This document shows positions 83 to 21,239 of a DNA stretch of 64,000 bases, one piece after another. The DNA lies in assembly GCA_950295325.1 (NCBI GenBank), contig OX485805.1, forward strand, positions 53,220,758-53,284,757. The letters are read 5' to 3'. This DNA comes from Polytrichum commune (lineage: Eukaryota > Streptophyta > Polytrichopsida > Polytrichales > Polytrichaceae). A model generated the notes under the pieces. That model was not told the DNA's origin. It did not search any database and worked only from the letters and a program-made list of their open reading frames with translations. The position numbers and the translations under genes were made by a program. Within the stretch, counting starts at the first letter, position 1; each line of letters begins with the position of its first letter.

Positions 83-1293
83 CACACTTCGAGGCTGGGT
101 TTGGGTCGAGCGACCCAAACCTTTTGGGAGGAGGGTTCAGGCTCAATACAGAGAGCACCCACACTTAGGCGCTGGGTTTGGGTCGAGCGACCCAAACCTT
201 TTGGGAGGATGGGTTTAAGGTCACGACAAGGAGCACCCATACTTAGGGGGCTGGGTTTGGGTCGAGCGACCCAAACCTTTTGGCAGGATGGGTTTAGGGT
301 CACTCCAGAGAGCACCCACACTTAGAGGGCTGGGTTTGGGTCGAGCGACCCAAACCTTTTGGGAGGAGGGTTCAGGCTCAATACAGAGAGCACCCACACT
401 TAGGCGCTGGGTTTGGGTCGAGCGACCCAAACCTTTTGGGAGGATGGGTTTAAGGTCACGACAAGGAGCACCCATACTTAGGGGGCTGGGTTTGGGTCGA
501 GCGACCCAAACCTTTTGGCAGGATGGGTTTAGGGTCACTCCAGAGAGCACCCACACTTAGAGGGTTGGGTTTGGGTCGAGCGACCCAAACCTTTTGGCAG
601 GATGGGTTCAAGCTCACAACAGTGAGCACCCACACTGTAGGGCTGAGTTTGGGTCGATCGATCCAAACCTTCTGGCAGGATGGGTTCAGGCTCAATAAAG
701 ACAGCACCCACACTTAGAGGGTTGGGTTTGGGTCGAGCGACCCAAACCTTTTGGCAGGATGGGTTTAGGGTCACTCCAGAGAGCACCCACACTTAGAGGG
801 CTGGGTTTGGGTCGAGCGACCCAAACCTCGAGGCAGGATGAGTTCAGGCTCACTACACACAGCATCCACACTTTGGGGCTGGGTTTGGGTCGACCGACCC
901 AAACCTTTTGGCAAGATGGGTTCAGGCTCAAAACAGTGAGCACCCACACTGTAGGGCTGGGTTTGGGTCGACCGACCCAAACCTTTTGGCAGGATGGGTT
1001 CAGGCTCACAACAGTGAGCACCCACACTGTAGGGCTGGGTTTGGGTCGACCGACCCAAACCTTTTGGCAGGATGGGTTCAGGCTCACAACAGTGAGCACC
1101 CACACTGTAGGGTTGGGTTTGGGTCGATCGACCCAAACCTTTTGGCAGGATGGGTTCAGGCTCACAACAGTGAGCACCCACACTGTAGGGCTGGGTTTGG
1201 GTCGATCGACCCAAACCTTGAGGCAGGATGGGTTCAGGCTCACATCAGAGAGCACCCACACTGTAAGGCTGGGTTTGGGTCGACTGACCCAAA
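83..1293. repeat. 78-bp satellite array built on a 20-bp palindrome
   Basis: About 16 tandem units of 77-79 bp. Each contains TTTGGGTCGNNCGACCCAAA (first at 100, last at 1274). The two central bases change between units (AG, AT, AC) while the 9-bp arms stay constant; the last unit has one arm mismatch. Several later units also carry a second small hairpin, GCTCAC/GTGAGC with a 4-base loop. Long open frames on both strands here (up to about 196 codons) are by-products of the repeat and are not annotated as genes. Confidence 0.95.
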
Positions 1294-1915
1294 CAATTCC
1301 GCAAAATCCGCCTATTTATTCGGGTGATTCTCTATTAATCTATATATAACCTATTTGGAACAACTGAACTCGTAGATGCTTGTTGTAATTAGCTGCTCAT
1401 GAATGGAAGCGTACACAAACCGTGTATTACAGCTCCAACTTAGAGAGCTTGCAGCAATCTCAGGATTGGGACATGAAAGAAAGAACCAGCATTTGGGGGG
1501 GTTGGGCTCTTTATACTACCCGCCTCCACTTTGGGCATCCTCTTTGGATGCCTTTCCCGCCTGGTCTCTTTTGGACGTTAATTCAAACCTTCTGACTCAA
1601 TTTCCCGCTTCTTGTCAATAATAGACAATGTATATTTAGCTTGGCTCTTCGTTGCCCCAACCATCAAATGAATAATTCAACATATATTTAAAGTTGTTAC
1701 CACCCTAACTTGGTCAACACTATTCTTCAACTCTTTCATAATTAATTTTATACATGAATACACCACCACCTTCCCTATTGCCATCTCCTTTCTCCTTTTA
1801 TCATTGTTGTATTTTTTTCTCACATCCTTACTAATACTAAATTCCTATATGTAACTTCCATATATCACCACAGTGGATATTTAGTGTTTGAGTTTACATT
1901 TAATGTTACTTACTC

Positions 1916-2051
1916 TCATAGGGTTAGTAATAGGAAGTGTATGCGTTCGTTTTAAGTGTATCAAACACTAACTATCATATAACTAAAAAGGATATAAAGA
2001 TTTTGATACACTACATATGAACGCATACACTGAATACCAATAACCCTATGA
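1916..2051. mobile_element. MITE-like element with long terminal inverted repeats
   Basis: About 136 bp. The outer roughly 50 bp on each side are imperfect inverted repeats that begin TCATAGGGTTA and share GTGTATGCGTTC and GTGTATCAAA in the same order. There is no coding capacity. No clear target-site duplication is visible, so the superfamily (hAT or PIF/Harbinger would be candidates) is unassigned. Confidence 0.65.
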
Positions 2052-2873
2052 CAATATGTAAGATTATATCTATTAAGGGGTTTTACTCTACTTGTAGTCA
2101 AACATTATGGTATATTTCAAACAATATATTGACAAAAGATGTGCATGTATTACAAAACTTCATATACTAAAAGTCACTAAAAGTCACTAAATATAATAGT
2201 TAATGCAATTACTTACACTCTCACATGAGGACTTATATTTTGAAAACAAATAATTAATGCCATGACAAACTTGAATAATTTGGCCAACTTTCAATTTCCG
2301 CTAGTTAAAAGAACATCTGTTGTGTTGTAATGTGTGCACCCAATATTGCTTCATCCTCAAGGCTCCAAGTGTGACAATAACCTAGTACCTATGTGGAAGT
2401 CATTAATGGAACCATAAACCACAAATGACATTTGGCACGTTCAATCTTTCAAGGATGTTTGAACCTATCGTGAAGTCCCTTGAACTCTAGCAATGTGTGT
2501 GAGCAAAACATGCAAAGTTCAAAAGGTATGTCCTCATATCATTCACAACATGAAATCTACCTTAAATTAATATATAATATTTCACTATTCCAAATAACAT
2601 GTTAACATGAACAACATCCTATCTATTATAATCTAGTTCTTATGCTTTTCTTACCAGGTGACAAGGTTATAGGTTAATATTGTATCACCTACTTGTGAGC
2701 ACAATATCATTTATTTCCTTTAGTGCGTTCATTCGTGAAAAACCACACATCCATCTTTCACGTTTGTGAATTAGGATGTTGTGATGACATTATACATTTG
2801 TATTGGAAACTACAAGCACCAAGGCCCATGTCATTTGACCTATGTGCCATCCAGTTATGATTTGTGTTGTTCA

Positions 2874-2895
2874 GGGTTTAGGGTTTAGGGTTTAG
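2874..2895 (+). repeat. Interstitial telomere-like run (TTTAGGG)3
   Basis: Three consecutive copies of the plant-type telomere heptamer. Too short to be a telomere; probably an interstitial repair scar or a telo-box-like promoter element. It supports a plant origin for the window. Confidence 0.7.
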
Positions 2896-3545
2896 GCATC
2901 ATCAAACATCAAATTGAATGTTTAAATGACTTCATATGATATGTGAACTCCATGGGGTTGCAGTAGATACATTTGTAATCATTTGTTTCTCCCATGTACT
3001 TCAAATGTGAACTTCTAAGTACATATATTAATGTTCACTCTAATGCTACTTGTTAGGGTATCCATTATAGACTAGAGCATTGTCCTCTACCAACAACCAT
3101 CATATAAATTACAATACATAATCCTAAACTGTTAACCATGTGAATGGTTACCATATTTATATTATTGCACCGTGTAATTGCCTTTGTGGATTGCAATATA
3201 ATTATGACTTACTCCTCTTAGACTTTGTAACACTCTCATATGATTCCATAAATTACATTATTCATACACCAAAACGATAATGGCTACATTCTACGATGTT
3301 ATCAATTCCAACGGGTGATCATTCAATTGAACACCATTAAAATATGAATTGGCGATGGTGTTAATTTTGTGGAATACCTTAGTCCACGTAGGTTTTTGAG
3401 TGGTATTGAATTGCCGCTAATGAATAGCCGGTTAGAAGGCCGGGGCCGGGCGGCCAAGAGAGGCGCCGGCCCTCCTATGTCCCGCACCTAGGGGCAAGGA
3501 CAACCAGGAAGGCAATCTGCCTAGGGTGGCAGGTGTCAACACCAC

Positions 3546-3614
3546 AAGCCTCGCGGGCAACCACCTTAACCAAGGAGGTGTCGACACCTGGCAGGGTGTT
3601 GGCCCGCGAGGCTT
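3546..3614. repeat. GC-rich inverted repeat
   Basis: AGCCTCGCGGGC near 3547 is the reverse complement of GCCCGCGAGGCT near 3602. It lies in a local GC-rich island (about 3430-3650) within otherwise AT-rich DNA, just upstream of the inferred first exon of the following gene. It may be part of its promoter region. Confidence 0.5.
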
Positions 3615-3639
3615 CTGAGCCGTTGATGTGCCCGGCGTA

Positions 3640-4381
3640 ATCTAATGGCCCGGATTCGAGGGTTTAGGGTGACCCCTTCCGCTCGCTCCTTCTCGCCCCT
3701 CCTTTTTTTTTGTTTTTTTTTTTTTCTTCATCTCTTCCTCCGCGCCAAGCGCCGCTCTTGGAAATGCCGCCGCGGCTTTCCATAGCGCCGCGCCAAGCGT
3801 TTCCACTCCCACCTTTTCATTTTGTTTTGGACGCGCCGCTTCCCGCTTCTTTCTCTTCATTTCTCTCCTCCTCTCTGATGCTTATCCTCCTTGGCTCTGA
3901 TTCTAGTTTGTTTCTCTATTCTTGTTGTAGAATGCACACATTCTGTGACTTCAGTTTGGTTTTGTTGTGTTGAAGTCCTTTCTTGTTGCAGAGTGCATGC
4001 AGTGAGTGACATCAGATTAGGGTGTGATAGAGAGGTAGTCTCCTCCTCTTCTTTGATTCTATTTTGTTTCTCTCTTCTTGTTGTAGAATGCACGCATTGA
4101 GTGACTTTAGGCAGGTTTTGTTGTGTTGAACTCTTTTCTTGTTGTAGAGTGCATGCATTGAGTGACATCAGATTCGGGTATGATAGAGAGGCAGAGTTCT
4201 TTCAAATTAGGCCTCAGCTTGCAAGAACCAGGGTGTTTGTGAGAGGGTTTTAGTGTGCTTGTGAGAATCATATTTCATCTCAGGTGATTTTGAGTGTAGA
4301 TTTTTAGTGATATCATAGAGATTCTGGGTTCTGATTTAGGAAATCAGATTTGAGAGCAGCTTGAAAGACTGTGATCAACAA
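3640..4381 (+). promoter_or_regulatory. Inferred promoter and non-coding first exon of the ParB/FCP1-like gene
   Basis: A pyrimidine-rich tract (about 3695-3735) is followed by transcribed-looking sequence ending at AACAAG/GTATAC (4381/4382), a plausible 5' splice site. The matching 3' splice site would be TTGCAG directly before the ATG at 5645. Start site and exon limits are inference; RNA reads would settle them. Confidence 0.35.
3900..4190. repeat. Diverged 156-bp tandem repeat, two units
   Basis: The segment starting TTCTAGTTTGTTTCTC near 3901 recurs near 4056 with about 156-bp spacing, and each unit has an internal half-repeat around CTTGTTGTAGA(A/G)TGCA. It lies in the inferred 5'UTR exon. 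Confidence 0.7.
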
Positions 4382-4498
4382 GGTATACAATTTCACTTGA
4401 CTTGATTTGCTTCATCTATTTAGGGTCCTGTTTTATATACAATGTATAAGCATTGTATATCTTGTCTAAACATTAAACATGTTATGGAAATTCAACAG

Positions 4499-5286
4499 TT
4501 TTGGGAGACGACCCAAACCACAATTTAAATCCAATAAAACATTGAAAACATGCTTGAAAATTAAGTTAAAGTTTGGGTCGTTCGACCCAAACTCTTGCTT
4601 ATCATGTTTGGGTCGATCGACCCAAACAGTGCAGGGAGACGAAGTAAACCACAATTTAAAATCTAATAGAACATTGAAAACAGGCTCGAAAATTAAGTTA
4701 AAGTTTGGGTCGTTCGACCCAAACTTTTGCCTATCATGTTTGGGTCGATCGACCCAAACAGTGCAGGGAGACGAAGTAAACCACAATTTAAAATCTGATA
4801 GAACATTGAAAACTGGCTTGAAAATTAAGTTAAAGTTTGGGTCGTTCGACCCAAACTCTTGCCTATCATGTTTGGGTCGATCGACCCAAACAGTGCAGGG
4901 AGACGAAGTAAACCACAATTTAAAATCTGATAGAACATTGAAAACTGGCTTGAAAATTAAATTAAAGTTTGGGTCGTTCGACCCAAACTCTTGCTTATCA
5001 TGTTTGGGTCGATCGACCCAAACAGTGCAGGGAGACGAAGTAAACCACAATTTAAAATCTAATAGAACATTGAAAACAGGCTCGAAAATTAAGTTAAAGT
5101 TTGGGTCGTTCGACCCAAACTCTTGCCTATCATGTTTGGGTCGATCGACCCAAACAGTGCAGGGAGACGAAGTAAACCACAATTTAAAATCTAATAGAAC
5201 ATTGAAAATTATCTTGAAAATTAAGTAAATGTTTGGGTCGAGCGACCCAAACATTGCAGCCACATGTTTGGGTCGTTCGACCCAAA
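4499..5286. repeat. 132-bp array, two palindromes per unit
   Basis: Six units with a strict 132-bp period. Each unit carries TTTGGGTCGTTCGACCCAAA and, about 35 bp later, TTTGGGTCGATCGACCCAAA; the last unit has AG and TT centres and degenerates at its edge. A degenerate copy starts the array at 4499. The spacer sequence is unrelated to the 78-bp satellite, so only the palindrome is shared. Lies in the inferred 5'UTR intron (4382-5644). The long open frames across it are repeat by-products. Confidence 0.95.
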
Positions 5287-5505
5287 TAAAGCATATATCC
5301 TCAACCCTAAACCCAACCCAAATGATGCCCAAATTAAAATCCTCCAAACATAAGGACTGGTTCTGGCATCCCCAAACAGAAATTTCTATTTAATGTTGCC
5401 AGAAATTGAAAGTGGTGGACTCATAGATATAAGCCTATACTATACTAATACAACCATACTCTCTAACGAGGACCTATCAAGAACACGCGCAACATGTGTT
5501 CATGG

Positions 5506-5616
5506 TTTGGGTCGATCGACCCAAACCTTGAATTCATGATGTCAAATATAATAAATTTCTCTCAATCCTCCAAATGTTAAATGCACATTGCAATACTTTG
5601 GGTCGATCGACCGAAA
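5506..5616. repeat. Two single palindromes upstream of the start codon
   Basis: An intact TTTGGGTCGATCGACCCAAA at 5506-5525 and a copy with one mismatch at 5597-5616. The second lies 28 bp before the inferred 3' splice site that precedes the ATG at 5645. Confidence 0.85.
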
Positions 5617-5644
5617 CTCACAGTTTCGATTTCTTGGATTGCAG

Positions 5645-6970
5645 ATGGCCCCTAAAAAGAGACCAGGTGAAAGGTGGTTCATGCTCGCGCCAGACCACCT
5701 TTGGCAGGAGTATGAAACTCCACAGGACGATTCTTACGTCCCAAAAGATGGCGTCGTTCTGGCATGGTCCGTTCAGGTGGTGAAGGCATCCATGTTCAAA
5801 CTGCTATTCGTGGTGAAGGTGGGGACCCACGAGCAGCACACCTGGGCAACGCTGACGGGATGGGAGGTTGCGTCTATCCAGTCTCTCGGGGACTATGTAG
5901 ACATCATACTGGAGAACTCCGCCGTGCAGAACGTCCACATGTTCATGCACCAGTCCTCCGAGCCCTTCGACCCCCTGTACGCCAAGGAAACCTGCGTCGA
6001 CCCTGAAACCATACAACCGGAGGCCATATTCATAGATGGCAGTGTAACCAACACGAAGGTTGCGAGCAGGTTCACGAAGTTAAAACAGGCCATCACGGTT
6101 CTAAACAAGGCGTTGCAAAGCAAACCCAAGACACAGCAACCTGTGAGGCGGAAGGCAACGACGGAAGAAGGCGCAGGGTCCTTAAGACCACAAACTGTGA
6201 GGAAACCGCGGGCGGTCCCTGTGGAGTCGAGACGGACAAGTACTACAACAATGCCGGCTGACAGCGAGACGCCAACGCCATCAACAAGCCGTCAAACGAC
6301 CCCTTCCAAAAGGGGAAGAGAGTCATCGGTGATGACTGACGAGCCTGTTTCCCCGGAGCTCTGGATGCCGAAGCCTGGCCAGGAGGTGGATGCAGGCGAA
6401 ATACAAAAAATAAACACCAACTTCGAAACAAAATGCCTGCACTGCTTCTTCATGGGCAGGGACTTCAAGTTTGAGGTCAACATTGCGCAGTGCCACCTTG
6501 CGCCACCCGAGAAATGTGTCCGAGCCAAGGAGGACGCCTACGTCGACTGGATGGTCGCTCAAATCTTGGGCGGGCAGTTCAAGGACGACAGGCAGACGAT
6601 TGTTGTCATGCCACAAGGGTTGAAGAGAATGCCGACGCCTGATATGTGGCTGACAATCTCCAAAGGAGACTTCTGGTTGATTGACGGGCAGCACAGTGTG
6701 GAGGCATCAAAAAAAATCCAGCTGATGACCGAGTGGAACGACCCGAACAACCAGAAGGAGAAACTAAAAGTTTGGAAGGCTTTGGTGGTTTGGTCAGACA
6801 ATGAGACGGTCCTCAACGACATCTCCAGGTTCTTCGACATGGGGAACAAAAAGAGGGCCTATCAGGCATCGTGGATCAGAAACATCATGGCCTCGAGGGA
6901 GGTGTGGGAGTTTTATGGCAGGCCTCCCAGGGAAAGGGAGAATGCTAAAGATAAGAACCCCAAATGGGAG
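5645..6970 (+). CDS. Coding exon 1: unknown N-terminus plus ParB/Srx-like domain
   Basis: 442 codons, opening with ATGGCCCCTAAAAAG right after a 3' splice site and ending at GAG/GTGAGT. Residues 1-155 form a compact unknown domain. About 157-230 is a basic, Ser/Thr/Pro-rich linker (KKR-type nuclear-localisation potential). Around residue 343 comes FWLIDGQHSVEASKKI, which resembles the core of ParB-N/sulfiredoxin-like domains (hydrophobic-DGxHR-type signature, here DGQHS), followed by about 80 residues ending in NIMASREVWEFYG. ParB-like proteins bind or hydrolyse nucleotides and often act on DNA; that function is not demonstrated here. The start is chosen because the frame opens immediately after the splice acceptor. 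Confidence 0.65.
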
Positions 6971-6979
6971 GTGAGTATG

Positions 6980-7170
6980 TTTGGGTCGACCGACCCAAAC
7001 TCTTTCATTGTTTTAGTGTCTTCAACAATTTCATAGTTTGGGTCGGTCGACCCAAACTCTTGCATGGCTTTGTTGTCTTTACCAGGTTTATAGTTTGGGT
7101 CGATCGACCCAAACTCTTGCATGGCTTTGTTGTCTTTACCAGGTTTATAGTTTGGGTCGATCGACCCAAA
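6980..7170. repeat. 57-bp palindrome array inside intron 1
   Basis: Four copies of TTTGGGTCGNNCGACCCAAA at 6980, 7037, 7094 and 7151 with centres AC, GT, AT, AT, spaced exactly 57 bp. The first starts only 9 bp after the 5' splice site (6971). Intron 1 spans 6971-7233. Confidence 0.95.
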
Positions 7171-7233
7171 CTGCTGTTACATTTGTTATTCCATGAGATG
7201 TTGTCTAACACGAATTGTTGGCTACGTGTGCAG

Positions 7234-8564
7234 GACTTCAAATATCAGATGATCAATAAATTCTCCTCGATAGACAATGCTAGCCACAAGCAAAAAAAAT
7301 ATAACGAGTTGCGAGGAGAAATATATTTGATCACCGCGTCCGACTCCATGTGGGGAAAATGGAGGAGTGTTTTTGAAAAACACGAGACGGGGGACCTTAT
7401 GGACCCGACACCGGCATGCTCTTCAACCAGACTACGCGCTTCAAACAAATGAAGCCTCTGGTGAGGGAGTTCTTCAGAGCGCTTCAAGGTCTTTCCGAGA
7501 CAGAGATGGGAAAAGCGGCGTCCCACATCCTACACTTGGAGACGACGGCGAAGAGATGCTGGGTCCACCCTAAGATCGTCTTCACCAAACCCAAGATCTT
7601 CGTCCCTTCATGCTACACCATGAAGGAATGGACGGAGAACAGGAAGAAGAAGACGACCATCGTCCAGGAGCTGCACAAGCTGGTGCCTGAGAAGAACCTC
7701 ATCGTGGACGGGGAGGTCCAAGAGGCGCACTGAAGGGCCTTCAAAGCCGAATATAAGTTCACCAGTGCGTCCATGGCGGCACTCATGAGGGAGGCGGGAG
7801 ACGACTTCCTCAGATCCAAGCTCGTGAAGGGGGGGAAGAACCGGGTGCTTCCCGAACACTCAGCGCGGGCCTTCTCCAACTTCATAAAGGAGAAGAAGAT
7901 CGTCAGTTTCGAAGGCGATGCGCAATTCAACATGGTCACCGTCGAGCCTCTCAGGATCCAAGGTTGGCCGGGCTCTGAGTCCAGGAAGGCGATCAGGACT
8001 AAAGCCGGGGACCGCTTCCCCTTCGGAATGATAGACTTCAGGAATATTCCTGGAGCCTCATTCGAGGGGACTATGAGCACCCCTTTTTACGATCCTTTCT
8101 TGTCGAAGTTCATGGACTACGCCAGCCCCAAATTCAGGGAGGTCGACGTCTGGCTCTGGATTGTCGAGGACAGGAGGGCAGAGCAGGTTTACGAGATCGT
8201 GCGCAAATTGCAGCCGGAGTATGCCGTCTCAAAATCTCACTACGTTGCTGCACCGGCGGAGGGGGCGTACAGCACGTTGAAAGACAAGAAGACGAAGATC
8301 GTCAACGTGTTGTGCTTGTACTTCGTGTACAAAGCTGATCTACTTAAGGTGCCCAACCATCCTATAGCCAGGATGGAAAAGCTCTTCCAAGTCCAAGAAG
8401 GGTTGGGTACCAGCAGGAGCTTGTATGACGAGGCGAAGTACGCCAACTACCCCGCGGATGAGCTGCGCATGGAGTTCTACCTGCGGATGATGAGGACCCT
8501 CACCAAGAGAGGGGACTGCATCTTCAACGTTTTCGGGGGATCCAAACCGATTTTTGCAGCAATG
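7234..8564 (+). CDS. Coding exon 2: unknown conserved-looking region, interrupted
   Basis: Opens after GTGTGCAG with DFKYQMINKFSSIDNAS and ends at AATG/GTAAGC. The starting frame closes at a TGA near 7450, while a second frame takes over around 7400 (MLFNQTTRFKQMKPLV...) and runs on, crossing one TGA near 7731, to the exon end. The combined product would be about 440 residues of mixed alpha/beta character with no domain I can name; charged helices (TMKEWTENRKKKTTIVQEL) are typical. The smooth continuation of composition across both interruptions suggests recent damage to a formerly open exon. Confidence 0.5.
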
Positions 8565-8599
8565 GTAAGCAAAGAACCCTGAAAACCCTATACGGACGG

Positions 8600-8763
8600 T
8601 TTGGGTCGAGCGACCCAAACTATGTTTGCCCCTAGTTTGGGTCGAGCGACCCAAACTAGGTATGCCCATAGTTTGGGTCGCTCGACCCAAACTAGGGGCA
8701 AACATAGTTTGGGTCGCTCGACCCAAACTAGGGGCAAACATAGTTTGGGTCGCTCGACCCAAA
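8600..8763. repeat. 36-bp palindrome array that reverses orientation, intron 2
   Basis: Five palindromes at 8600, 8636, 8672, 8708 and 8744, period 36. The first two have centre AG and the last three CT, its reverse complement; the spacers reverse too (TATGTTTGCCCCTAG versus CTAGGGGCAAACATA). The array is therefore an inverted repeat of palindromes. Intron 2 spans 8565-8847. Confidence 0.95.
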
Positions 8764-8847
8764 CTAACTATTCTTATTTTATTTTGGATGTCATTTTTCC
8801 TTACTCTTCATTAGTTTATACTAATACTATTGATTTGGATTGTGCAG

Positions 8848-10317
8848 ATGTCTGGGTTGAACATCTACTCCTATGTGGAGGATGCCGATGTTCAATTTTA
8901 CAGGACCCAGAAGGCACTGGCCAAGAAAATGGACATCCTTGACTGGATACCCGGATCGTACATTGAAGAGATAGTCGAGGGGGGCAAGAATCCTTTGGAT
9001 ATGGCGAGGCGAATCAACCCGGGTGAATTCGCCATGCGTGCCCCCGTTCAATTGCCAGAGCCGCTCATCGGGTTGCATCCGGGCAATCCGTCGATGGGAG
9101 CAGGTGGCGAGGTTGGGGAGGAGGGGGAGGAGGAGGAGGAGGAGGAAGCAGAGAAAGTGGAGGGGGAGGTGGAGGAAGGGGCAACAGGATTCACTCAAGA
9201 ATCCGAGGCCCCTCAGCGGAAGAAGGCCATGCGGGCTGCCACGCCGCAAAGCAGGCTGGTGCCCGCGTTGACGGTGGACGACGCGAAGGACATGTACTCG
9301 AGGGACGCGACGGCCACCTTCAGGGAGCGGAGAAGGATGAAGGGGAAGAAGGTGTACGGCGACTATGCGGTGGAGGAGACGATCGCAATAAGCTCAGAGG
9401 ACGAGGACGACATGGAACTCGCCAACAGGCTGAGGTCGGATCCTGCCTCCCCCAGAGCGTTCGCCGGGAATGTGAGGGTGAAACCGGAGGTCCTCACCGT
9501 GGAGGAGGCGAACGCAAAAATGCTCCGAGACGAGGAGCAGCGTGTGCGACTGCAGAGGGCTGCCGCCGAGGAACCCTCGGTCCGCAACGAAGTCGCGGAG
9601 TTGAGGGCTCTCCTGTTGGAGCAGGAGCGGCAAAGGGCGATGGCCCAACCTCCGTCCCAAGCGGAGCTCATCACGCAAGTGATCCAGGGCATGCTGGCGC
9701 AGGGATTGGTGATGGCTCCCTTGAGTTCATTCCCGCACTTGCCCGCAGGCTTCCCGCCACAGGATATCGCCCCGCGGCCCACACTGCAGCATTCCTTCAG
9801 CTTCGCACAGTTGCTGCAGCCGCACGCCCGTCTTTACGCGCCCGTCCAGCAGGTGGACGACCCCAACCTTTGGCGCGTCCCCGGAGCGTCCAGCTCGTTG
9901 GCGCCCCCGCCGCTCCGGCCTCCCATCCTCTTGCCCCCACACCACCAGCGGGACGACCCCCACATGTTTGGGTCGTCCGACCCAAACAGTGCCGACGTTG
10001 CAGCGTCCCAGAGCGACGCTCGCCAAGCAGCAGGGTTTGGGTCGGCCGACCCAAACCCCGTCCCCGACTAGACCCCGGTGGACGGGCCCATGTTAGACGT
10101 TGAAGGCCCGCAAGGGCCTAGTGATACCTCTACTCCTAACCCAGTCGATGAACCAATGCATGATGCGCATGCGGAGGTTGGGTTGGGACAAAGGCCTGAC
10201 AGTCCGCCTTTGCAGGAGCAGGTTGCGGCTGACGTCGTCGTCGGAGGCGGCGGTGACAGAGGTGGGGCAGTGCAGGCGATGCCGGCATCAACGTCGTCAA
10301 GGCACGACCAAGGCGAG
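8848..10317 (+). CDS. Coding exon 3: acidic, coiled and Pro-rich middle region
   Basis: 490 codons between TGTGCAG and GAG/GTAATG, starting MSGLNIYSYVEDADVQ. Residues 1-75 look folded (LDWIPGSYIEEIVEGG). A run of Glu/Gly lies at about 85-112, an acidic patch ISSEDEDDMEL near 185, a short coiled coil (VRNEVAELRALLLEQERQR) near 245-265, and a Pro-rich stretch at about 290-370. Two copies of the palindrome fall in frame, encoding FGSSDPN and FGSADPN (9967 and 10036). A TAG at 10069-10071 stops the frame shortly after, but the same frame stays open to the splice donor. TAG could derive from CAG by one transition. Confidence 0.6.
9967..10055. repeat. Two palindromes inside coding sequence
   Basis: TTTGGGTCGTCCGACCCAAA at 9967-9986 and TTTGGGTCGGCCGACCCAAA at 10036-10055. 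Both are intact in their arms and lie within exon 3 in the same reading phase, adding FGSxDPN heptapeptides to the low-complexity end of the exon. Confidence 0.9.
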
Positions 10318-10339
10318 GTAATGCACTGACCCCACTCAG

Positions 10340-10359
10340 TTTGGGTCGGTCGACCCAAA
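10340..10359. repeat. Single palindrome at the start of intron 3
   Basis: TTTGGGTCGGTCGACCCAAA, 22 bp after the 5' splice site at 10318. Intron 3 (10318-10827) is otherwise pyrimidine-rich then AT-rich, with no other feature seen. No intact copy of the palindrome was found to the right of this one; a decayed form occurs near 12219 in intron 5. Confidence 0.9.
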
Positions 10360-10827
10360 CTCCATGGGTCTTTGTCTTCTTGCCTTGGTCGTGTCCCCTA
10401 GCTACCCTAAACTCACACACACGTCGCCCCCCTGGCACTCGCGCCCTTCGCCACATCCCCCCGACCATTCGTTCGTTCACCTACCCCGGCTTGCGACCAA
10501 GTCTTCATCACGGCGGCCCGTCTCTTCAATTTTTGCTAGATGTAGAAGTAGGCTAGTTTGAACGCATCGTTCAACGCGGCTCCCCCCAATCAAGATGTAC
10601 ATAGAGCATTGTATACAATACAATCACCATTTTTGACTCCTATATACTTGTATATTGTGTTTGAATGTATTTTGTATGCTCTTGTCTCTCTTGTATCCCT
10701 TGTTGCACCCCCCCAAAATGAATCAATTGGTTTTGTGTTTGCACCAAGAACACTCGTTTCCTTAATGCTTCGTTTGGACATAGCATGACATAAGTCGCCC
10801 CCCGTTTTCTCTCGCTCGTATCCGCAG

Positions 10828-11640
10828 GGCTCGGAGCATAGCGTAGCGGCTCCCCGACGCTCTTCTCCAAGGAGCGCAGAGGGCAGCACGGCGGCCCCCC
10901 CGGTTTTACCCGCCCCGCCCCCGCTGCCGAAGAAACGATTCCTGGTGTTAGACCTGAACAGTGTCCTCGTGCAGTGCGTTCATTGCCCTAGGGCCCCCAC
11001 AGTGCCCTTTTGCAAGCCCGAGGACGCTAATTACGACGGGCCACCCACGTTCATAAAAAGCAAGCTAGTTCACCTCCGCCCGTGGCTTCGGACCTTCCTC
11101 CAGATCGCCCAACAACGATGGTGGGTGGTCGTGTGGAGCTCCATGACGGCCGAGAACACCAATGCAGTCGTGGAGTTCATCTTCAAGGGCATCGAGCCCC
11201 CCTGCATGGTCCTAGCACAGGAAGCCTGTAGAATATTGTACACACAGGACGGCAAAGTCGTCAAAAAACCAAACAACCCCGCTTCCCCCCAATACCTCAA
11301 GGTCTTGAAGCCCATTTTTTGGGACCAACGACCGTCCTTGATAGGCATCCCCTACGATGTCCGCCCCACCCGCGAGAACACGCTCATGGTGGACGACAAC
11401 GCCGCAAAGAACATGTTGAACCCGACGGCCAACTTCATAGTGTGCCCTACGTGGACGGTCGAGAAGGTCCGGGACCGATTTTTGTTAGACCTTAGTAAAT
11501 ACCTCCAGGCGCTCTGGGGAAGCGGACTTCCCGTAAACAATTTTGTTAGGAATAATCCCATAGGCGAGAGATACTTGGATCCACGAGACCACTTGTACAG
11601 AGAGTTGTTATCTCACGCGAAATTTAACAAGCTCATTTGA
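10828..11640 (+). CDS. Coding exon 4: FCP1/NIF-type HAD phosphatase-like domain
   Basis: After TCCGCAG, in phase with exon 3, a short Pro-rich lead-in is followed by KKRFLVLDLNSVLVQ (motif I near residue 41), VVVWSSMTAEN (motif II near 101) and LMVDDNAAKNMLNP (motif III/IV near 187). This order and spacing fits FCP1-like/NIF/TIM50-type HAD proteins, which dephosphorylate Ser or Thr in proteins such as the RNA polymerase II tail. Motif I has DLN instead of DxD, as in the plant subgroup with DLNG, so catalysis may be weak or lost. The frame ends at TGA 11638-11640; whether this is the natural end or a stop before a further splice is open, because the next two exon-like segments continue in the same phase. 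Confidence 0.7.
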   Translation, partial: GSEHSVAAPRRSSPRSAEGSTAAPPVLPAPPPLPKKRFLVLDLNSVLVQCVHCPRAPTVPFCKPEDANYDGPPTFIKSKLVHLRPWLRTFLQIAQQRWWVVVWSSMTAENTNAVVEFIFKGIEPPCMVLAQEACRILYTQDGKVVKKPNNPASPQYLKVLKPIFWDQRPSLIGIPYDVRPTRENTLMVDDNAAKNMLNPTANFIVCPTWTVEKVRDRFLLDLSKYLQALWGSGLPVNNFVRNNPIGERYLDPRDHLYRELLSHAKFNKLI

Positions 11641-12137: not shown

Positions 12138-12273
12138 GTGAACCCCCCCCCCCCAAAAAAAAACATGGTTATCCGCGCATTACAATCATTTTGCACTTAA
12201 AAAATGAACGTGTGACACGTTTGGGTCTTCCTCCCTAAACTAACACATGTGTTCTTGCATTGACGCGTTGCAG

Positions 12274-12591
12274 GTTGCTCCCACCTGTAAACCTATGCGG
12301 TCTAGTGCGTCCATCGAGTTGGAGCGTTTCTACTCCATGACCAGAAATGCAAGACAGTCCACTTCATCGTATTCGAATTCTTCGTCGTATAATTCGGGCG
12401 GCCGACGGAATCCAAAATGTGTTATTGATGGCGTTCACCCCAAGAATGGCTATAGTCGCGGGGCGGAGATTTTCAGGAATGTTGAAGCAATGCGAGCAAA
12501 AGAAGCTGCAGCAAAAGAAAAAGAGGCAAAAGAAAAAAAAGCAAAAGAAAATGAAGCAAAAGAAAAAGAGGTAGTATCCGAGGCTAGATAG
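12274..12591 (+). CDS. Coding exon 6: Ser-rich then Lys/Glu/Ala helical tail
   Basis: 105 codons from CGTTGCAG to a TAG. It contains ERFYSMTRNARQSTSS, a short Ser/Asn-rich run, KNGYSRGAEIFRNVEA and an (AKEKE)-type repeat likely to form a charged helix. The same exon, with its flanking intron and 3' DNA, is present as an open inverted copy at 57584-57901, differing at a handful of residues and in the number and make-up of the charged repeats. That copy supports this exon as genuine coding sequence. Confidence 0.6.
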   Translation, partial: VAPTCKPMRSSASIELERFYSMTRNARQSTSSYSNSSSYNSGGRRNPKCVIDGVHPKNGYSRGAEIFRNVEAMRAKEAAAKEKEAKEKKAKENEAKEKEVVSEAR

Positions 12592-13138
12592 GCCATAGTA
12601 GGCGTAGGGTTTTGGGCCATAGGCAAGAACATTTTGGGTCTCACTATCCAATGCATGTGTGGTGTTAGCATGATATGCATTTTACATGCCACACTTTGTA
12701 TGTTTTTTTTTGCAATAATACAAGTTAGACATGATTTTCCCTTCCATATGGTCTAAGGTTTGGATTGCCCTACCTAAACCATCACAAATATGAGTTTGGA
12801 ATATTTTGTATGCAATATTATATTGGTTAACATATTAACCCTTCAATAAGATCTATGGTTTGGATTGCCCTACCTAAACCATATTCATACAAGCTCTAAT
12901 ATTTTGTGTGCAATAATATGAATGTTTTAAGGTTTCCCCTTAAATGTGGTCTAAGATTTGGATTGCCCACCCTAAACCATCACAAATATGAGTTATTTAT
13001 GGGGTTCTTGGTCTAAACACCTGCTTCAAAGTGTTCGCATCTTACAACTTTCTCCAATATGTGTTCCATTTATCCTTGTTCTTATTTATGTGAATGTCTC
13101 AAAATGCCCAAAAAGTCTCAATTTAACGAATATAGTGT
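12592..13138 (+). repeat. 3' flank with about 100-bp repeats around an imperfect palindrome
   Basis: Three copies at 12757, 12857 and 12955 of a 24-bp imperfect palindrome with outer arms GGTTTGG and CC(T)AAACC, spaced 98-100 bp. This is a different sequence from the main palindrome but the same kind of organisation. The stretch recurs inverted at 57027-57580. Probably the 3'UTR and downstream flank of the preceding gene. Confidence 0.75.
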
Positions 13139-14049
13139 TATTGTTGACAATCCCATTACATAGTCTTAGAAGCTGGAGGATGCCTACTACTACTACATGA
13201 GGCATTGGTTCACTTTTATGATGCACAATTATTTCCGATTCATTCATGGACCATATTATCTTGGTCACACAATTGTGTATAGACTGCACCACTGGACATT
13301 TGACAATGATTGTAAATTTTATGAGCTTGAATCTAAAGATCTATTAAGTATGTGCCAAACCTCATGCTAGGTTATGGATGCATGGTATATATATGATTTC
13401 ATCCATCACGCTCATTGGTGCCATTTGAAGCAACCTTAAATCCAGTTGAGGCACCCCATAAATATGTCTCCTCTCAATGACACACAAGTGTATATATATA
13501 CACACATAATTACTCGAAATTTTGTCTGTGATTTATCATATATATTGTGTGTAATTTCTAAAATGACTAAGTACATTATTCTACATGGCATGTGGGTGGG
13601 ATTTCTCCGAAATTCTTTGCATAATGTCTCCTAGCCAATATCACGCTGACCTCTAGGAATAAGGAAGCACAAACTATTGCTATGACACTCATACTCTAGA
13701 TCAAGTACTTTGCATAAGCAATTATAATAGTGTTGCCCATAAGAGCATTCCTATTCCTTTCCATCCAACACAACTTGATGCTACCATCCTTGATGTGTTT
13801 GACAAATCATATGGGCTTGTATATAAGAATTAGGAAAGTGATGTCTTTTCATTGGTTTCTCAGAAGAAAAGAAGAAAAACTTCGGTCTTCGGAGGAGACC
13901 GACGTGAATGAAGTGTCTGTTCGATCCTCCTCCAATCCGATGCCCACAGGACAAAGGTATGGAGGTAAAGATCTACTCCTCCCTTTCGAGAGTAGACACT
14001 ATAGTCACCAGTTACTAGTAACAAGAACCAAAATGGTTAGTTTTTAGGG
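13139..14049. other. Intergenic DNA, no recognised feature
   Basis: AT-rich sequence with a short TA/CA microsatellite near 13490-13505. Short open frames are present but none resembles a protein family I know. The homology to the 57-58 kb copy ends at 13138. Confidence 0.4.
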
Positions 14050-14143: not shown

Positions 14144-15865
14144 CTATGGGGGGTCTAGTGTTTGGGGCAGGGGTTGGTGGTTTTCTATTCTTCTTTTGTG
14201 TAGGAGGATAGACATGGCATACTTAATAGCGATAGTATTGATGTTTTTAAAAGTATTTTTAATGATAGGCATAGGTATTTTAAATTTATTTTCGAGTGAT
14301 TTCATTGAAGGAATGTGTGTAGTGGCTCTAGCGCCTGCGGTGATTATAATAAGGGGGTCAACTTTCCATCCTCTAGCAGCAATACTATCGATTAATGGTT
14401 TATATTTGTTATTTTTTGCTTCGAGTGTTTCTGGGGAGAATCTATCATTACAGTATGTGAATTCGATGAATTGTATGGTGAGGTTGGGGTCCATGTCTGT
14501 GGGGGGGTCATTTTGGTACGGTAATCCTCTAACACAAAGAATGTCAGGTCTAAATCTGGAGTTACAATGGCATCTTTGTGTACCGCATGTGCAAGGGAGT
14601 AGCCAATTGGAAACGGTGTTTTCCTGGGATGTATTATTGAAGGTGCTAGTGTTCATGAGAATATAACATCGAGATTTTTCAGATGAGATTAGTAATTTCC
14701 TAATTTCCCATACATCTTTGTTGTGTCTTTTGACGTGAAGTGAATGTATATGTTGTTGTTTACACGTAAGTAGTACATGTAACCACGTGTCCGGTTTGTA
14801 TGAGTTGCAAATGGGGCATGTAATAGAGGGATATGATTGTCTACCGAAGAACAATTGTTTTCGAGCATTGCCCATATAGGTTCCTGTTCGGAATTTGATG
14901 AGGCATGATTTTTGTTTATCCGTGATTTCCGGGTTTTCCCAGAATTCGTTAGAAAGTTCTTTATCTATATCTGCATTTCCTGTCCATTTGTAAGTGTTGG
15001 GGGTTTGTGTGGCCATGTTTTCCAAGTTGTTTTCCCTATTGTATTTAATAATTTGTTTTTCTAGGAATCTAACAGGGCCTTTATCAGGAACGTCCATCAT
15101 TGAGGCCCAAACGTCCTTTTGGTAGTAGTATGGGGTGGCATGGGCATGTTCATATGGGTGAATGGCAATTCTGTGCTCTAGTTCTAGCCCTTCTTTTGCC
15201 AATTTGTCTGCTTGTTCGTTGCCGTTAATGTTGACGTGTGCTCTGACTTTGTATAGTGTGATTGGTTGTGTTCGGTTTTGAAGTAGTTGTACCATGGTGG
15301 CGAGGGTGATTTGGTCAGGGTGGCTATTGTGAAGTGTGGGGTGTTTAACTTGTGTGTTGAGTAAGTATAATACATTGAGACTGTCGGTAAATATGTATGC
15401 GGGTTCGTTTGGATATAGTGTATTAATGATTGTTAGTGTTTCATGTATGGCTATCATTTCTGCTCGTAGTATGTTTTGGAGTTCATGTAGTTTTTTGGAG
15501 ATGTTAAGGCCCTTCGGGCTATAGATTCCATAGCCAACTCTTTCTCTTCTCCATACTTCAGGGTTAATTTCTTTGGGTTTCATAAAAGAACCATTTGTAT
15601 AGTAGCTGAGTTGTGGATGGAATTTTAATGGTAAGTTGGTTTGGTAATTAGGGAATTGTGGAATAAGTATGTTATTATTATTGGGTGTGTTTGGATAGTT
15701 AGATTTAGCCCATTTTTTGCTAGGATTAACGGCGGTATTTAAGGGGGTGGGTTGTGCAATTTGTGTGTGAATTTGTAATATTTGGAGGTTATTTGCTATG
15801 TTGGTGAGTTGATTCATTTGTTCGTAGGTACCGATGTGATTGTTTTGGTGGTGGATACAAAATAT
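14144..15865 (-). pseudogene. LINE ORF2, RNase H and C-terminal RLE endonuclease part
   Basis: Open from about 15865 to the stop at 14144. RNase H: YTNGS (15590s) stands where YTDGS carries the first catalytic Asp; the Glu (RAEMIAIHE), the Asp of FTDSLNVL and the Asp of NEQADKLA are present. A CCHC-type zinc motif follows near residue 336 of the 557-residue frame (CPICNSYKPDTWLHVLLTC), then RHN, then RPDILCV and about 30 residues later EFTYC, then KNNKYKPL and an ITAGARA segment. That order matches the restriction-like endonuclease of R2-type LINEs. It would nick target DNA during target-primed reverse transcription. The Asp-to-Asn change suggests RNase H is inactive in this copy. Confidence 0.75.
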
Positions 15866-17470
15866 TCATAGTGTTGATAATTCTTTTCTCGTGATATTGA
15901 GTTCGGAGGGAATTGTGGGTTCTTCGTATATGATGGTGTTTGCTGCAAAGTGGGCAATGATATGTGTGTCCAAGAATGGGCCAGTGTATGGGTTAAAGTT
16001 ATGGTACCAATCCATATCTTTTGAAATAAGTATAGTGATTGTATTTGGGTTGTTTTTGGCCGCAATGCGGGCCCAATGGATGGCTTGTTGTAAGTCTGTT
16101 GCGTTATGGGGGTGGGCGTAACCAATTCCCTTCCAATTTTGGTCAAATGTTTTTCCTAGGGATCCAAATATTCTATCCCTAGAGAATGGTGAGTGGAATT
16201 GGGTGAATTGTGTGGGACAAATAACTGGGGATGAGAAGTATGAATGGTTGATATTAAATGATGTTATTAGGAAATCTAGTATTGGAGTTGGTATAGTATA
16301 TTGGGCACGTTTAAGTGGGTCATTTTTTGGAATACGGTATTTATACCTTTGGTATAGCCACACGATTTCAGTTTTAAATGATTGGGTAGGTGGTTCTAGA
16401 CTATGTGGGGTATTTTTAGCTTGATGGTATTGTTTCCATAGCCACAGTAATCTAGTTTTTGGGATGGTAATGAGGTGCCGGCCGTTGTCTTCATATATGT
16501 GAGCGACATCTAATTGTGTTTGGATAGTATTAGTATTTGTTTCGATGTCACTCTCTGGGTTGCATTCATTAATGGAGATATGTGCCAATGAAATTATTGT
16601 GGCAGGGATAACGTATCTAGTATCTCTTAGTTGTTCCGTGGAGAAGTATGCGTTGACGATATTTGTGAAGTACTTGTGTTGCCTTTTCGCATAATATTGG
16701 GTAAGTAGTTCAGTGTTGTGACAAATAGTATAGGCATCACAATAGGGAAATAACTCTCTTTGGGTGCGCCATTTGTTGTATCTGGTATTATTTGTTGTAG
16801 TCCATTGGCATAGGTATGATGTGTCATTTCTTTTAATCCCGTTAGAATCTATGAGTTGTCGTTGTTTGTGATCTAGTATTATGTGTATAGGAAATTGACG
16901 GGGGTTGTTAAGCATATTGTTGGGAGGCGGGGGTAGGTAGGGGGTAGGGGGATTTGGGGGGTGTATAGGGGGGGTTGGGTGTTGAGGGAGGACGGTATGA
17001 TTTATTATTATGTAATCATTCTTTAAGGTTCGTGGGGAGTAATGGTGTGGGCATGGTAGGTGGCATTTTTGGTGGCAGGAAGGGTGGCAAAATAGTTGAT
17101 TTGCGATGTTTAATGCACTCTTGATGAGTTTTGTAGGATTGAAGTGGTATATTTTAAAGTCGTTTAGGTTCATTAAGGTTGTGCCATTGGGCATGATTAT
17201 TTGTTCTAATTTTATTATATTGTGCAATAGAAGTTTTTGTAATAATTTAAGTGAAGTGTTGGGGTTTAGGCCCTGTAGGTTTTGAGCTTCTTTCAACCAT
17301 GTGGTTTTAAGTGTGGATGGGTTTAATAAGAAGCTATTTATTGTACTTTTTAGGTGGACTCCGGCTTCATGTTTAAGTAGGAATAACGTTCTAGTGATAG
17401 GTGATCTAACACAATGATGGTATTTAATGCAGGTTATTTCTTTGGAACCTCCAAATTTTGCAAGTATAAT
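15866..17470 (-). pseudogene. LINE ORF2, thumb region and unidentified interpolated domain
   Basis: Continues the polyprotein between RT and RNase H; it ends at a TGA (15866-15868) in frame with the RNase H part. It contains a Cys/His cluster (CHPSCHQKCHLPCPHH), a Pro-rich spacer (TPPIHPPNPPTPYLPPPP) and, near its end, YFSSPVICPTQFTQF, DRIFGSLGKTFDQNWKG and AIHWARIAAKNNPNTITILI. The last part vaguely resembles Dam-like adenine methyltransferase folds, but no catalytic DPPY-type motif is seen (AHPHN stands at the comparable place). Function unknown. Confidence 0.55.
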
Positions 17471-18521
17471 TTTGCAAGTATAAATTTTGCAAGCCATGAT
17501 AGATTTTACCGAGTCTACCTTTGTCATTGAGGGCATTTTGTAGTTGTTCTCCGATACAACGCAAGTAGGCATTTTGTAGAGAGAATGCTTCAATTCCAAA
17601 TAGATCGTGCGGGAGTTGTGTAGCGATATTAGATGTGCTTTTTGGTAATCCGCATATTGTTTTATGAAGTGCTATAATCTTCTTATCGAGTTTTTTGATA
17701 GCCGGAATAGAGTATGGTACTGCGTAAAAGTTGTAGGCTATACCAGCACGTATGACTGTATCTGCCATGTTGATTTTTTGTTTCATGTTAACTGGGCATG
17801 CTACAAGGGTTTGGCATTGTTTAATAACTTTAGTTGTAGTGGTATTAATTTGTGTTTTCCATTTAAGAGATGGTGCAAGATTGATTCCCAGATAGGTGTA
17901 TGGTTCGTGTTGATCTAGGACTGGTAATGGTTGGTTTCTATAGTTTATATTAGTAGATTGAATCAGGGCTTTGAATGTTATGGGGTTCATTTTAGATTTA
18001 TTAGGGCATCCGGTCACTGCACACTTGGGTATTCCAAAGTCCATTCCCGCCCATTCGCAGAATTTGTCTAATTTGTTTAGTTGTGTTTGTAATGATTTTA
18101 ATTTGTTGGCAATCGCTGCTAGATCATCGGCATATGCTGCGGATGTGATTTTAATTTTGGATGTTCCAAAGGTATATTCATTGTCACCTTGTTGTAACCA
18201 TCTAAGGAGGGGTTCTAAGAATATTAAAAATAAGTAAGGGCTGAGAGTGTCTCCTTGTATTGTACCTCTTTGAATGAGGATGAGTAGGGTTTTGCCGAAG
18301 TATTCTCCAAGATATATAATAGTGGATTGTGAGTATATATTTCCGATGAGGTTTATTGCATCTATTGGATATCCAAGGTCTTTCATTATGGCTAAGAGTC
18401 TTGCATGATCAATGGAACTGAAAGCGTTTTTGAAATCAATGTAGAGGATATATATATCTTGGTTCGTAAATCTTACGTCTTCTAATCCTGCAATGAGGAG
18501 TTGAAGTTGTCTGGATGTTCC
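17424..18521 (-). pseudogene. LINE ORF2, reverse transcriptase palm
   Basis: In frame with the upstream part across the TGA at 18522-18524. Shows YIDFKNAFSSIDH (block A), RGTIQGDTLSPYLF (block B) and AYADDLAAI (catalytic YADD), then the GIPKC block. All catalytic Asp residues are present. Near 17457-17495 a roughly 15-bp motif (TTTTGCAAGTATAA-like on the plus strand) occurs three times in a row, and the reading frame switches there, so slippage within this tandem repeat is the likely cause of the frame change. Confidence 0.8.
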
Positions 18522-20723: not shown

Positions 20724-21230
20724 TTATATAACTCGGTATGTATAGAGTTTTTTGGGGTGTATTATATCTTGGTTATTTTCAACAAATGTTGTGTATGGGT
20801 GTTGTGTTAGAATGTGTCGCTCGGGAGGGTTGTTAAGGTTGGCTAGTCTAATGATTAGTGTGTTGGTCCATATGTCGTTAAAGTGGTAAATGCGGGGTTG
20901 GGCTAATATGTTGTTGCATGTGTCTATTGAGGGGTTTATCGTAATGACTAAAGCATATAGTATATGAGTTGATTGGGAATGACTTTGTGTTAGGATGTAT
21001 TGATGTAGGTGTGGATATATGATGGTTGTTTGGTGATGTAGTGGGTGATTCTGTTTTAGTATGGGAGCGAACGTGTTTGCTATGTGTTGGTACTCTGGTT
21101 GTAGTTTTATTGTGTTTGGGATAAAATATGTTTTGGCTCTCTTTTTATGTGTAGCGGGGTGTGTGCGTAGGATATCAGGCATTGGTTCGGGGTTAGGTTC
21201 TATATCTCCACATTGTAATAATGTTAATTT
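20724..21230 (-). pseudogene. LINE ORF2 N-terminus with 2A-like motif
   Basis: A segment of about 168 residues lies in the same frame as the APE domain, ending at a TAA (20724-20726). It begins LQLHGYYFINKLTLLQ, then CGDIEPNPEP (plus-strand 21183-21212) and MPDILRTHPATHKKRAK. DxExNPGP is the 2A ribosome-skipping signature, known at the N-terminus of several LINE ORFs; here the Gly is Glu (GAA for GGA). The rest is His/Thr/Ile-rich with no known domain. Confidence 0.65.
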
Positions 21231-21239
21231 ATTGATGAA

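Follow-up and report, generated by a model that had tools for sequence, protein, structure and literature searches.

A 24-bp inverted repeat with nearly frozen arms and a free centre recurs in tandem arrays and as single copies in Polytrichum commune

Results

The palindromic unit and its copies

The window analysed here, a stretch of 64,000 nucleotides of the moss Polytrichum commune, contains a short palindrome of which the arms are nearly frozen, the two central bases vary and the outermost bases vary in letter yet are complementary in 38 of the 42 copies. The unit that fits best is the 24-bp inverted repeat N-GTTTGGGTCG-NN-CGACCCAAAC-N', having 10-bp arms, a 2-bp centre and one outer pair. 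The first-pass annotation had described a 20-bp palindrome with 9-bp arms and a free centre; the dyad and its free centre stand, whereas the size is better given by the longer unit. The 20-mer, TTTGGGTCGNNCGACCCAAA, is found as 39 exact copies and as three copies with one mismatch (starting at 648, 1274 and 5597), all within positions 100-10359 (the first exact copy is at 100 and the last at 10340-10359), in agreement with the approximately 42 copies counted earlier in this region. The palindrome ends GTTTGGG...CCCAAAC in 40 of these 42 copies, and its half-sites rarely occur alone, since 42 of the 43 TTTGGGTCG and 39 of the 41 CGACCCAAA sequences of the 64-kb window lie within dyads. The centres of the exact copies are AG (12), AT (10), TT (6), AC (4), CT (3), GT (2), TC (1) and GC (1), being the same eight kinds as previously listed. 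Chance is excluded as the origin of these copies, as no exact copy was found in 100 dinucleotide shuffles and decayed relatives (see below) are far above expectation. It is also correct that the window has no other intact copy, the nearest match outside 100-10359 (at 57506) having three mismatches; this says little on locality, because a large share of the 12.1-64 kb region, as characterised at 12.1-24.5 and 39-64 kb, is retroelement or repeated sequence.

Arrays and single copies

The palindrome occurs in four arrays, of which the reported periods of 78, 132, 57 and 36 bp are confirmed by TRF, and also, as had been claimed, singly (at 5504, 5595, 9965, 10034 and 10338). Array A (83-1294, 78 bp) has 16 copies with AG, AC or AT centres, one arm change each at 648 and 1274, and near-identical multi-unit blocks. 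Array B (4494-5287, 132 bp) has 12 copies, two per unit; in its last unit, the spacer between the palindromes is altered and one outer arm position (5287) has changed, and a degenerate copy with six mismatches is present at about 4498-4517. The single copy at 5504-5527 (24 bp) has a G-C closing pair and an AT centre, and the arms of the one at 5595-5618 are changed twice, at the outer G and at one position of the 20-mer.

The latter copy is located approximately 26 bp before the inferred ATG of a gene-like sequence on the forward strand (5645-11640), with inferred exons at about 5645-6970, 7234-8564, 8848-10317 and 10828-11640. Its introns are of the GT-AG type with phase-0 joints, the borders being deduced from the sequence, and it is broken by a frame break near 7.4 kb and by in-frame stops at 7731 and 10069. 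Palindrome copies are found upstream of this broken gene and, within it, in one exon and in four of the inferred introns. Array C (6978-7172, 57 bp, four copies) lies in the inferred intron 6971-7233; its spacers 1 and 2 differ at 10 of 35 positions with identical 10-bp arms, and its spacers 2 and 3 are identical. Array D (8598-8765, 36 bp, five copies) lies in the inferred intron 8565-8847. Its spacers 3 and 4 match the reverse complement of spacer 1 exactly, its centres (AG, AG, CT, CT, CT) are flipped in step with the spacers, and it forms 82-nt arms of 96 percent; it has the appearance of an inversion that ends in two palindromes. The copies at 9965-9988 (centre TC) and 10034-10057 (centre GC), which share one inferred coding exon, read FGSSDPN and FGSADPN, respectively, and the frame through the second of these hits a stop shortly downstream. 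The last single copy (10338-10361, centre GT) lies about 20 bp into the inferred intron 10318-10827. The 24-mer is stop-free in three frames for every centre (0 of 192 with stops), a property shared by 76 percent of random palindromes matched for arm composition. The periods of the four intact arrays are multiples of three; the period of the 98-bp array described below is not.

The last piece of the gene-like sequence has a NIF phosphatase domain (PF03031, E 1.5e-13), which was the only match to reach the curated cut-off when the gene pieces were searched; these searches gave no candidate enzyme, no REP-type transposase and no match in PHROGs. No relative of the first exon was found in the PDB, and the structure models of two gene pieces are unusable (mean pLDDT 31.5 and 34.6). 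A bacterial or viral origin was rejected: the exact palindrome is absent from viral_contigs and occurs once in genome_contigs, where roughly four occurrences of 18 fixed bases in 257 billion are expected by chance, and no relatives were found for two gene pieces searched against viral_contigs or for one searched against plasmids. No structured RNA family (Rfam) or tRNA was matched, and a bacterial promoter and terminator scan of positions 1-2000 gave counts near those of shuffles.

Arms, centre and spacers

The arms have five changes in 840 positions over the 42 copies. Counted conservatively within arrays, 3 of 100 arm columns are variable as compared with 65 of 193 spacer columns. Of the centre columns, 8 of 10 are variable. 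Equal variability of centres and arms, which the first-pass annotation had set against its proposal that the arms are constrained or copied around a free centre, is thus not seen in the window, and the proposal is supported there. The contrast between arm and spacer is strong in array A (2/20 arm vs 26/56 spacer columns over all 16 units, p 0.0002) and array B (1/40 vs 26/88, 0 of 20000 permutations as extreme), moderate in array C (0/20 vs 10/35 internal spacer columns, hypergeometric p ~0.006) and weak in array D (0/20 vs 3/14 internal spacer columns when orientation is matched, hypergeometric p ~0.06); arrays C and D on their own give little support. Each copy has two CpG dinucleotides in its arms, and over the 42 copies one has been lost (at 1274). 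All five arm changes are single-sided, and no compensatory change was found inside the ten arm pairs of the 42 copies, such that folding alone does not explain the arms.

A free centre with changing flanks is not trivial for dyads in this DNA, because two other recurring perfect dyads of the window (seven and six copies), which belong to repeated retroelement-like sequence, each keep similar flanks and one fixed centre. A property common to all dyads of the window is therefore rejected.

Closing pair and flanks

The outermost pair is complementary in 13 of 15 contexts (5.3 expected, p 5e-5), in 8 of 10 first copies (p 0.0046) and in 9 of 10 last copies (p 0.0007), the p values of this study being optimistic, as the number of contexts is small and some of them share descent. 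The next pair outward is at background level (4 of 15 contexts complementary). The standard closing pair is missing in the copies at 648, 1274, 6980 and 8600. A single 22-nt copy folds as RNA with -13.2 kcal/mol (z -4.5).

The spacers of the different arrays had been called unrelated. This holds to the extent that invariable sharing of flanking spacer, the outcome that the earlier annotation had set against its own proposal, is not seen within the window; the spacers are not wholly unrelated, some flanking bases being common between arrays. The summed similarity of six flanking bases over 15 contexts is 368, compared with a mean of 315 at random sites (p 0.0015); for 3, 4, 5, 8 and 10 bases, p is 0.0045, 0 of 2000, 0.004, 0.0275 and 0.0475, respectively. 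Full spacer homology as a complete explanation was rejected, since the flanks are only partly shared. Visual inspection of the flanks of the 15 contexts gave no adjacent target-site duplication; the copy at 5506 has TTCATG on both sides, the right one several bases distant. Flank positions 1-8 are heterogeneous across contexts, without a fixed tetranucleotide tag beside the palindrome.

Decayed relatives

Degenerate relatives of the palindrome extend to about 12980. Between 10361 and 14000, there are four sites with at most four mismatches, compared with 0.035 expected, and none of 200 shuffles had as many. An inferred later intron contains a decayed copy at 12219-12240, with mismatches at 4 of 18 positions, which is identical in an inverted copy near 57936. 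In an array of 98-bp period (12704-12988), the related core GTTTGGATTGCCCTACCTAAAC is no longer perfectly palindromic and is conserved relative to its spacers.

Discussion

The nearly frozen arms, the free centre, the covarying closing pair, the inversion-like array D, the scraps of shared flank and the decayed relatives together lead us to read the palindrome, tentatively, as a sequence-recognised, recombination-prone foldback element, with a dimeric protein site as a close rival. It is possible that each arm is read by some factor through its ten fixed letters and that arm-damaged copies therefore drop out, the two central letters being the tip or the spacer of the dyad and drifting freely. 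The outermost letters would need only mutual pairing, by which the halves may fold on or template each other as a DNA hairpin or cruciform; the covarying outer pair favours such a folded or self-templated step. The palindrome would land, or be copied with a few flanking bases, in introns, an exon and intergenic DNA, and would then seed tandem and inverted duplications; the inverted 36-bp array favours recombination at the palindrome. The trans-acting protein, the folding and the mobility (the palindrome is perhaps mobile) are predictions of the foldback reading. The mechanisms listed by the first-pass annotation cannot be narrowed to one.

The nearly frozen arms around a free centre would also suit a duplex site for a homodimeric host protein, regulatory or chromatin-associated and CENP-B-box-like, in which selection at each site would keep the arms for a predicted binding, the centre is an uncontacted spacer and the arrays are ordinary tandem duplications retained for binding. 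This is a serious though somewhat doubtful alternative. The copies are concentrated around one gene, a 17-bp box conserved in otherwise divergent nematode satellites provides a precedent (PMC3694981), and the conserved, non-palindromic core of the 98-bp array speaks for recognition of duplex or sequence rather than for a folding requirement. However, independent half-sites would give no covariation of the outer pair (p 5e-5 for the 15 contexts, 0.0046 for the 10 first copies), and regulatory selection is hard to envisage for the many copies that lie within a now-broken gene, in its inferred introns and in an exon. It is quite unlikely that the arrays are ordinary young satellites, one palindromic stretch having been recently and repeatedly copied, with arms frozen by recency or local gene conversion. 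The tandem arrangement, the near-identical multi-unit blocks of array A, the flank scraps common between contexts and the identical spacers (2 and 3 of array C; 1, 3 and 4 of array D once orientation is matched) agree with recent copying, but the difference between spacers 1 and 2 of array C is not accompanied by any in the arms, the same contrast is seen in A and B, and conversion tracts limited to 20-24 bp between unrelated spacers would be improbable. Recency also sits poorly with the single loss of an arm CpG over 42 copies, although three of the four inferred introns are CpG-poor (observed/expected 0.31-0.64, the fourth being 0.99).

An RNA hairpin with an 11-bp stem that would work at the level of the transcript, for instance in RNA processing or the handling of introns, is very unlikely: some 3 kb separate array A from the inferred start of the gene downstream, and the arms lack compensatory changes and an Rfam match, even though copies are present in four inferred introns and one exon, one copy folds well as RNA and the closing pair covaries. 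For a palindrome, a strand preference is impossible to show. Still less probable is a site of a site-specific recombinase that flips and duplicates spacers, with the free 2-bp centre between fixed arms as its central overlap. Array D, with its inversion-like structure and its centres flipped in step, is what such a site would produce, but it is the single inversion seen, centres are mixed within arrays despite the need for matching overlaps, and the nine open frames that were searched gave no recombinase match other than a retroelement integrase core.

Among the matches listed, no paper describes this palindrome in its title or the start of its abstract. Box 1 of Meloidogyne satellites, a CENP-B-box-like sequence of 17 bp, is conserved in divergent satellites; array junctions fall at the conserved boxes, and a transposase-related mechanism has been proposed (PMC3694981). 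The likeness is that a short box is constant while satellites diverge, and the box is kept while monomers diverge also here, clearly in arrays A and B, moderately in C and weakly in D, as well as in the 98-bp array. In the parts of that source drawn on, Box 1 is not termed a palindrome (PMC3694981), whereas the moss word combines dyad symmetry with a free centre and a covarying closing pair, and can also be found as single copies, within inferred introns and within an exon. The short palindromic repeats of the organelle and nuclear DNA of Volvox carteri form hairpins, lie in either orientation in intergenic DNA and in introns, and are thought to be selfish; they are 11-79 nt long (average 50), with loops that are often TAAA or TTTA, and the nuclear copies are called inert, many being degenerate (PMC2670323). 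The moss unit resembles these in that it folds, at 24 nt, and is found in four inferred introns and an upstream array; it differs by its fixed 10-bp arms, its 2-base centre of eight kinds and its nearly invariant copies among exons that are inferred to be spliced. LIMP of Lobosphaera incisa mitochondria is likewise a recurring palindrome and a possible rearrangement substrate, but its 7-nt loop is invariant and its arms, built of pentanucleotide repeats, vary in length (PMC4524435), which is the reverse of the arrangement in the moss. The Rickettsia palindromic elements share the location within genes, but are about 150 bp long and code for a peptide in an open frame (PMC10969869), compared with 24 bp here. 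The Fusarium mitochondrial palindromes are no close match, as their arms are runs of A and T (PMC7218506).

Bacterial REP/BIME sequences are palindromes of 20-40 bp tied to a transposase, also found in arrays of alternating orientation, and REPs are described as GTAG- or CGTC-tagged (PMC3733652). The moss palindrome is eukaryotic, has no fixed flanking tag and is not accompanied by a REP-type transposase in the gene pieces searched. A bolder extension of the foldback reading, which we consider unlikely, is a REP-like system of a eukaryotic nucleus, with a 24-bp foldback of which the arms are read by sequence and the foot by pairing, and which an enzyme copies, inverts and multiplies. Such a trans-acting enzyme would multiply the palindrome in introns and even in coding sequence, and the 98-bp array would be an older family with a diverged version of the word.

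Conserved boxes within fast-evolving repeats are mostly unexplained. The palindrome described here is sharply delimited and symmetrical; its end pair covaries, and its centre serves as an internal neutral control. It is found in four arrays that differ in their spacers, as single copies and, in a diverged version, in a fifth array. With such a delimited word and its neutral control, the question of what holds a short box constant while the satellite around it drifts becomes directly testable.

Arm conservation within the arrays

The palindrome, a 20-mer with 9-bp arms and a free 2-bp centre, is present as 39 exact copies between positions 100 and 10359, as compared with none in 100 shuffles of the window, and three further copies with one mismatch fall within the same span. 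This agrees with the roughly 42 copies reported by the first-pass annotation, whose four periods and eight kinds of centre are also recovered. The copies are divided over array A (83-1294, 78-bp period, 16 copies), array B (4494-5287, 132-bp period, 12 copies, two per unit), array C (6978-7172, 57-bp period, four copies), array D (8598-8765, 36-bp period, five copies) and five single copies, starting at 5506, 5597, 9967, 10036 and 10340. The centres are AT, single-step neighbours of AT, or TC and GC, a set that free drift from AT could yield.

Over the 42 copies, the arms have five changes in 840 positions, one each in the copies at 648, 1274 and 5267 and two in the copy at 5597. Variable columns were compared inside the arrays, after orientation matching of the array D spacers and using internal spacers only for arrays C and D. 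In array A (16 units), 2/20 arm columns vary versus 26/56 spacer columns (p 0.0002), a value as low being reached in 2/78 rotations. For array B (6 units), the numbers are 1/40 and 26/88; none of 20,000 permutations is as low, and among 132 rotations only the true one is. The arms of arrays C and D are invariant (0/20 each), whereas their internal spacers vary at 10/35 and 3/14 columns, respectively (hypergeometric p about 0.006 and about 0.06, calculated by hand); these modest counts give both arrays less weight. The case for arm conservation rests on arrays A and B, array C adds support, and array D is insufficient alone. When the four arrays are pooled, 3/100 arm columns vary versus 65/193 spacer columns and 8/10 centre columns, such that the centres are indeed freer than the arms, as had been proposed.

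A closing pair extends the unit to 24 bp

The 20-bp unit of the first-pass annotation stands as a core, but its extent is better described by 24 bp, with 10-bp arms and a closing pair. G and C adjoin the 9-bp arms in 40/42 copies. One position further out, the letters vary by context and are complementary in 38/42 copies (G-C in 16, A-T in 14 and T-A in 8); the four exceptions are those at 648 and 1274 and the copy that opens each of arrays C and D. Over 15 contexts, 13 pairs are complementary versus 5.3 expected with shuffled partners (p 5e-5), and the single copies combined with array-internal, first or last copies give 10/10 (p 0.0004), 8/10 (p 0.0046) and 9/10 (p 0.0007), respectively; the contexts are partly related, which makes these p values optimistic, and the test on first copies is the most cautious of them. 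The next pair outward (position 2) is at background level (4/15 contexts), and from position 3 to position 8 of the flank no evident excess of pairing is seen (lowest p 0.056, at position 7, 15 contexts).

Array D, shared flanks and the host gene

The internal spacers of array D are s1, s2 (differing from s1 at 3/14 positions) and two exact reverse complements of s1, and the centres are, in order, AG, AG, CT, CT and CT. Such an order would result from an inversion with one end inside palindrome 3 and the other inside palindrome 5. It is less readily explained by a plain inverted duplication centred on palindrome 3, since the third spacer is the reverse complement of s1 and not of s2.

Some distant copies have flanking bases in common: the exon copy at 9967 and copies of array B are preceded by CAT and followed by AGTGC, and TCTTGC follows copies in array B and in array C alike. 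Summed over the 15 contexts, flank similarity exceeds that of random sites (p 0.0045, 0/2000, 0.004, 0.0015, 0.0275 and 0.0475 for 3, 4, 5, 6, 8 and 10 bases, respectively). The inverted comparison is at least equally strong (0/2000 to p 0.0015), in part because of the closing pair and neighbouring array copies.

The palindromes lie in and around gene-like sequence (about 5645-11640, forward strand), predicted to be spliced and now broken, with a frame break near 7.4 kb and stops at 7731 and 10069; its last piece has a phosphatase domain of the NIF type (PF03031, E 1.5e-13). Four predicted introns (4383-5644, 6971-7233, 8565-8847 and 10318-10827) contain arrays B, C and D and three single copies; two single copies are within one predicted exon, in equal reading phase, and insertion of 24 bp would preserve the frame. 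The palindrome with any centre is stop-free (0/192 with a stop), which is not special, because the same holds for 76 percent of random palindromes with comparable composition.

Decayed relatives

Between 10361 and 14000 there are four sites with at most 4 mismatches of 18 (0.035 expected; 0/200 shuffles have as many), and 10361-64000 has 11 such sites versus 0.32 expected, some of them inverted duplicates of these same sites and three of them (43696, 49521 and 61517) belonging to copies of a single repeat. Two of the four, with a third core having 5 mismatches, form a 98-bp array (12704-12988), in which 3/22 core columns vary versus 45/78 in the surroundings (p 0.00015; 6/100 rotations as low); in its inverted copy (57.2-57.4 kb) the values are 2/22 and 42/77 (0/20000 permutations; 2/99 rotations). 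These comparisons take in some edge sequence, and the two array copies are non-independent. The core has lost perfect palindromy, and its conservation nevertheless argues for keeping of the sequence, not for folding alone. Beyond about 12.1 kb, a good part of the DNA is retroelements and repeats, so that the missing intact palindrome there says little on spread.

Other elements of the window

By its features, the window is eukaryotic DNA: reading by eye shows GT-AG introns and, near 2875, about three telomere-like GGGTTTA repeats, and domain matches mark a LINE-like block as well as an integrase core together with a Tf2-type SH3 domain. The telomere-like repeats tentatively suggest a source in the green lineage. 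The LINE-like coding block (14144-22900, reverse strand; RNase H and weak endonuclease matches) has very strong strand skew, with GC skew up to 0.64. An inverted counterpart of 12146-13143, the 3' portion of the gene region that bears the palindromes, stands at 57025-58026 (91 percent identity), where repeated sequence adjoins it on both sides. Two directly repeated segments, each about 6 kb long (40193-46179 and 58018-64000), are 99.1 percent identical; with further copies of 0.7-4 kb beginning at 46001, 52382, 53782 and 55509, they make up nested, retroelement-like repeats. A perfect 24-bp palindrome, GGGCGCTGTCCCGGGACAGCGCCC, is present in six repeat copies with nearly equal flanks (40880, 46695, 53076, 54456, 56184 and 58700), and seven repeat copies (39350, 40405, 46220, 52601, 53981, 55709 and 58226) carry another dyad, GGACTTCCATCCATGGAAGTCC, whose centre is fixed and whose flanks are alike. 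Immediately ahead of the first 6-kb repeat is a tandem array of G-rich GGGGTTCGGAT (39838-40199). An imperfect 178-bp inverted repeat (1895-2072, 71 percent identity) could represent a short foldback element or something akin to a MITE. At 36427-37883, three open frames (221, 204 and 310 aa) overlap one another.

Possible mechanism

It is possible that the palindrome is a sequence-recognised foldback element, which would recombine and be copied locally, and this reading is tentatively favoured. The frozen arms fit it and a putative homodimer binding site alike; the latter, a close runner-up, is favoured by the 98-bp core, whereas the closing pair and array D favour the foldback element. Covariation of the closing pair is predicted by a fold or by self-templated copying and not by independent dimer half-sites. 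The searches of the gene pieces yielded no acting protein: the phosphatase domain alone passed a curated cut-off, and a PHROGs search returned nothing convincing.

The palindrome resembles several known elements: short palindromic repeats in the organelles of algae (PMC2670323, PMC4524435), REP elements and Rickettsia palindromes (PMC10969869). In each of three comparisons, with the Volvox repeats, REP elements and the Rickettsia palindromes, it lacks at least one of the features tested. It works like the conserved boxes of divergent satellites, as in Meloidogyne Box 1 (PMC3694981), and this conserved satellite-box kind, with putative protein binding, may be compatible with the palindrome.
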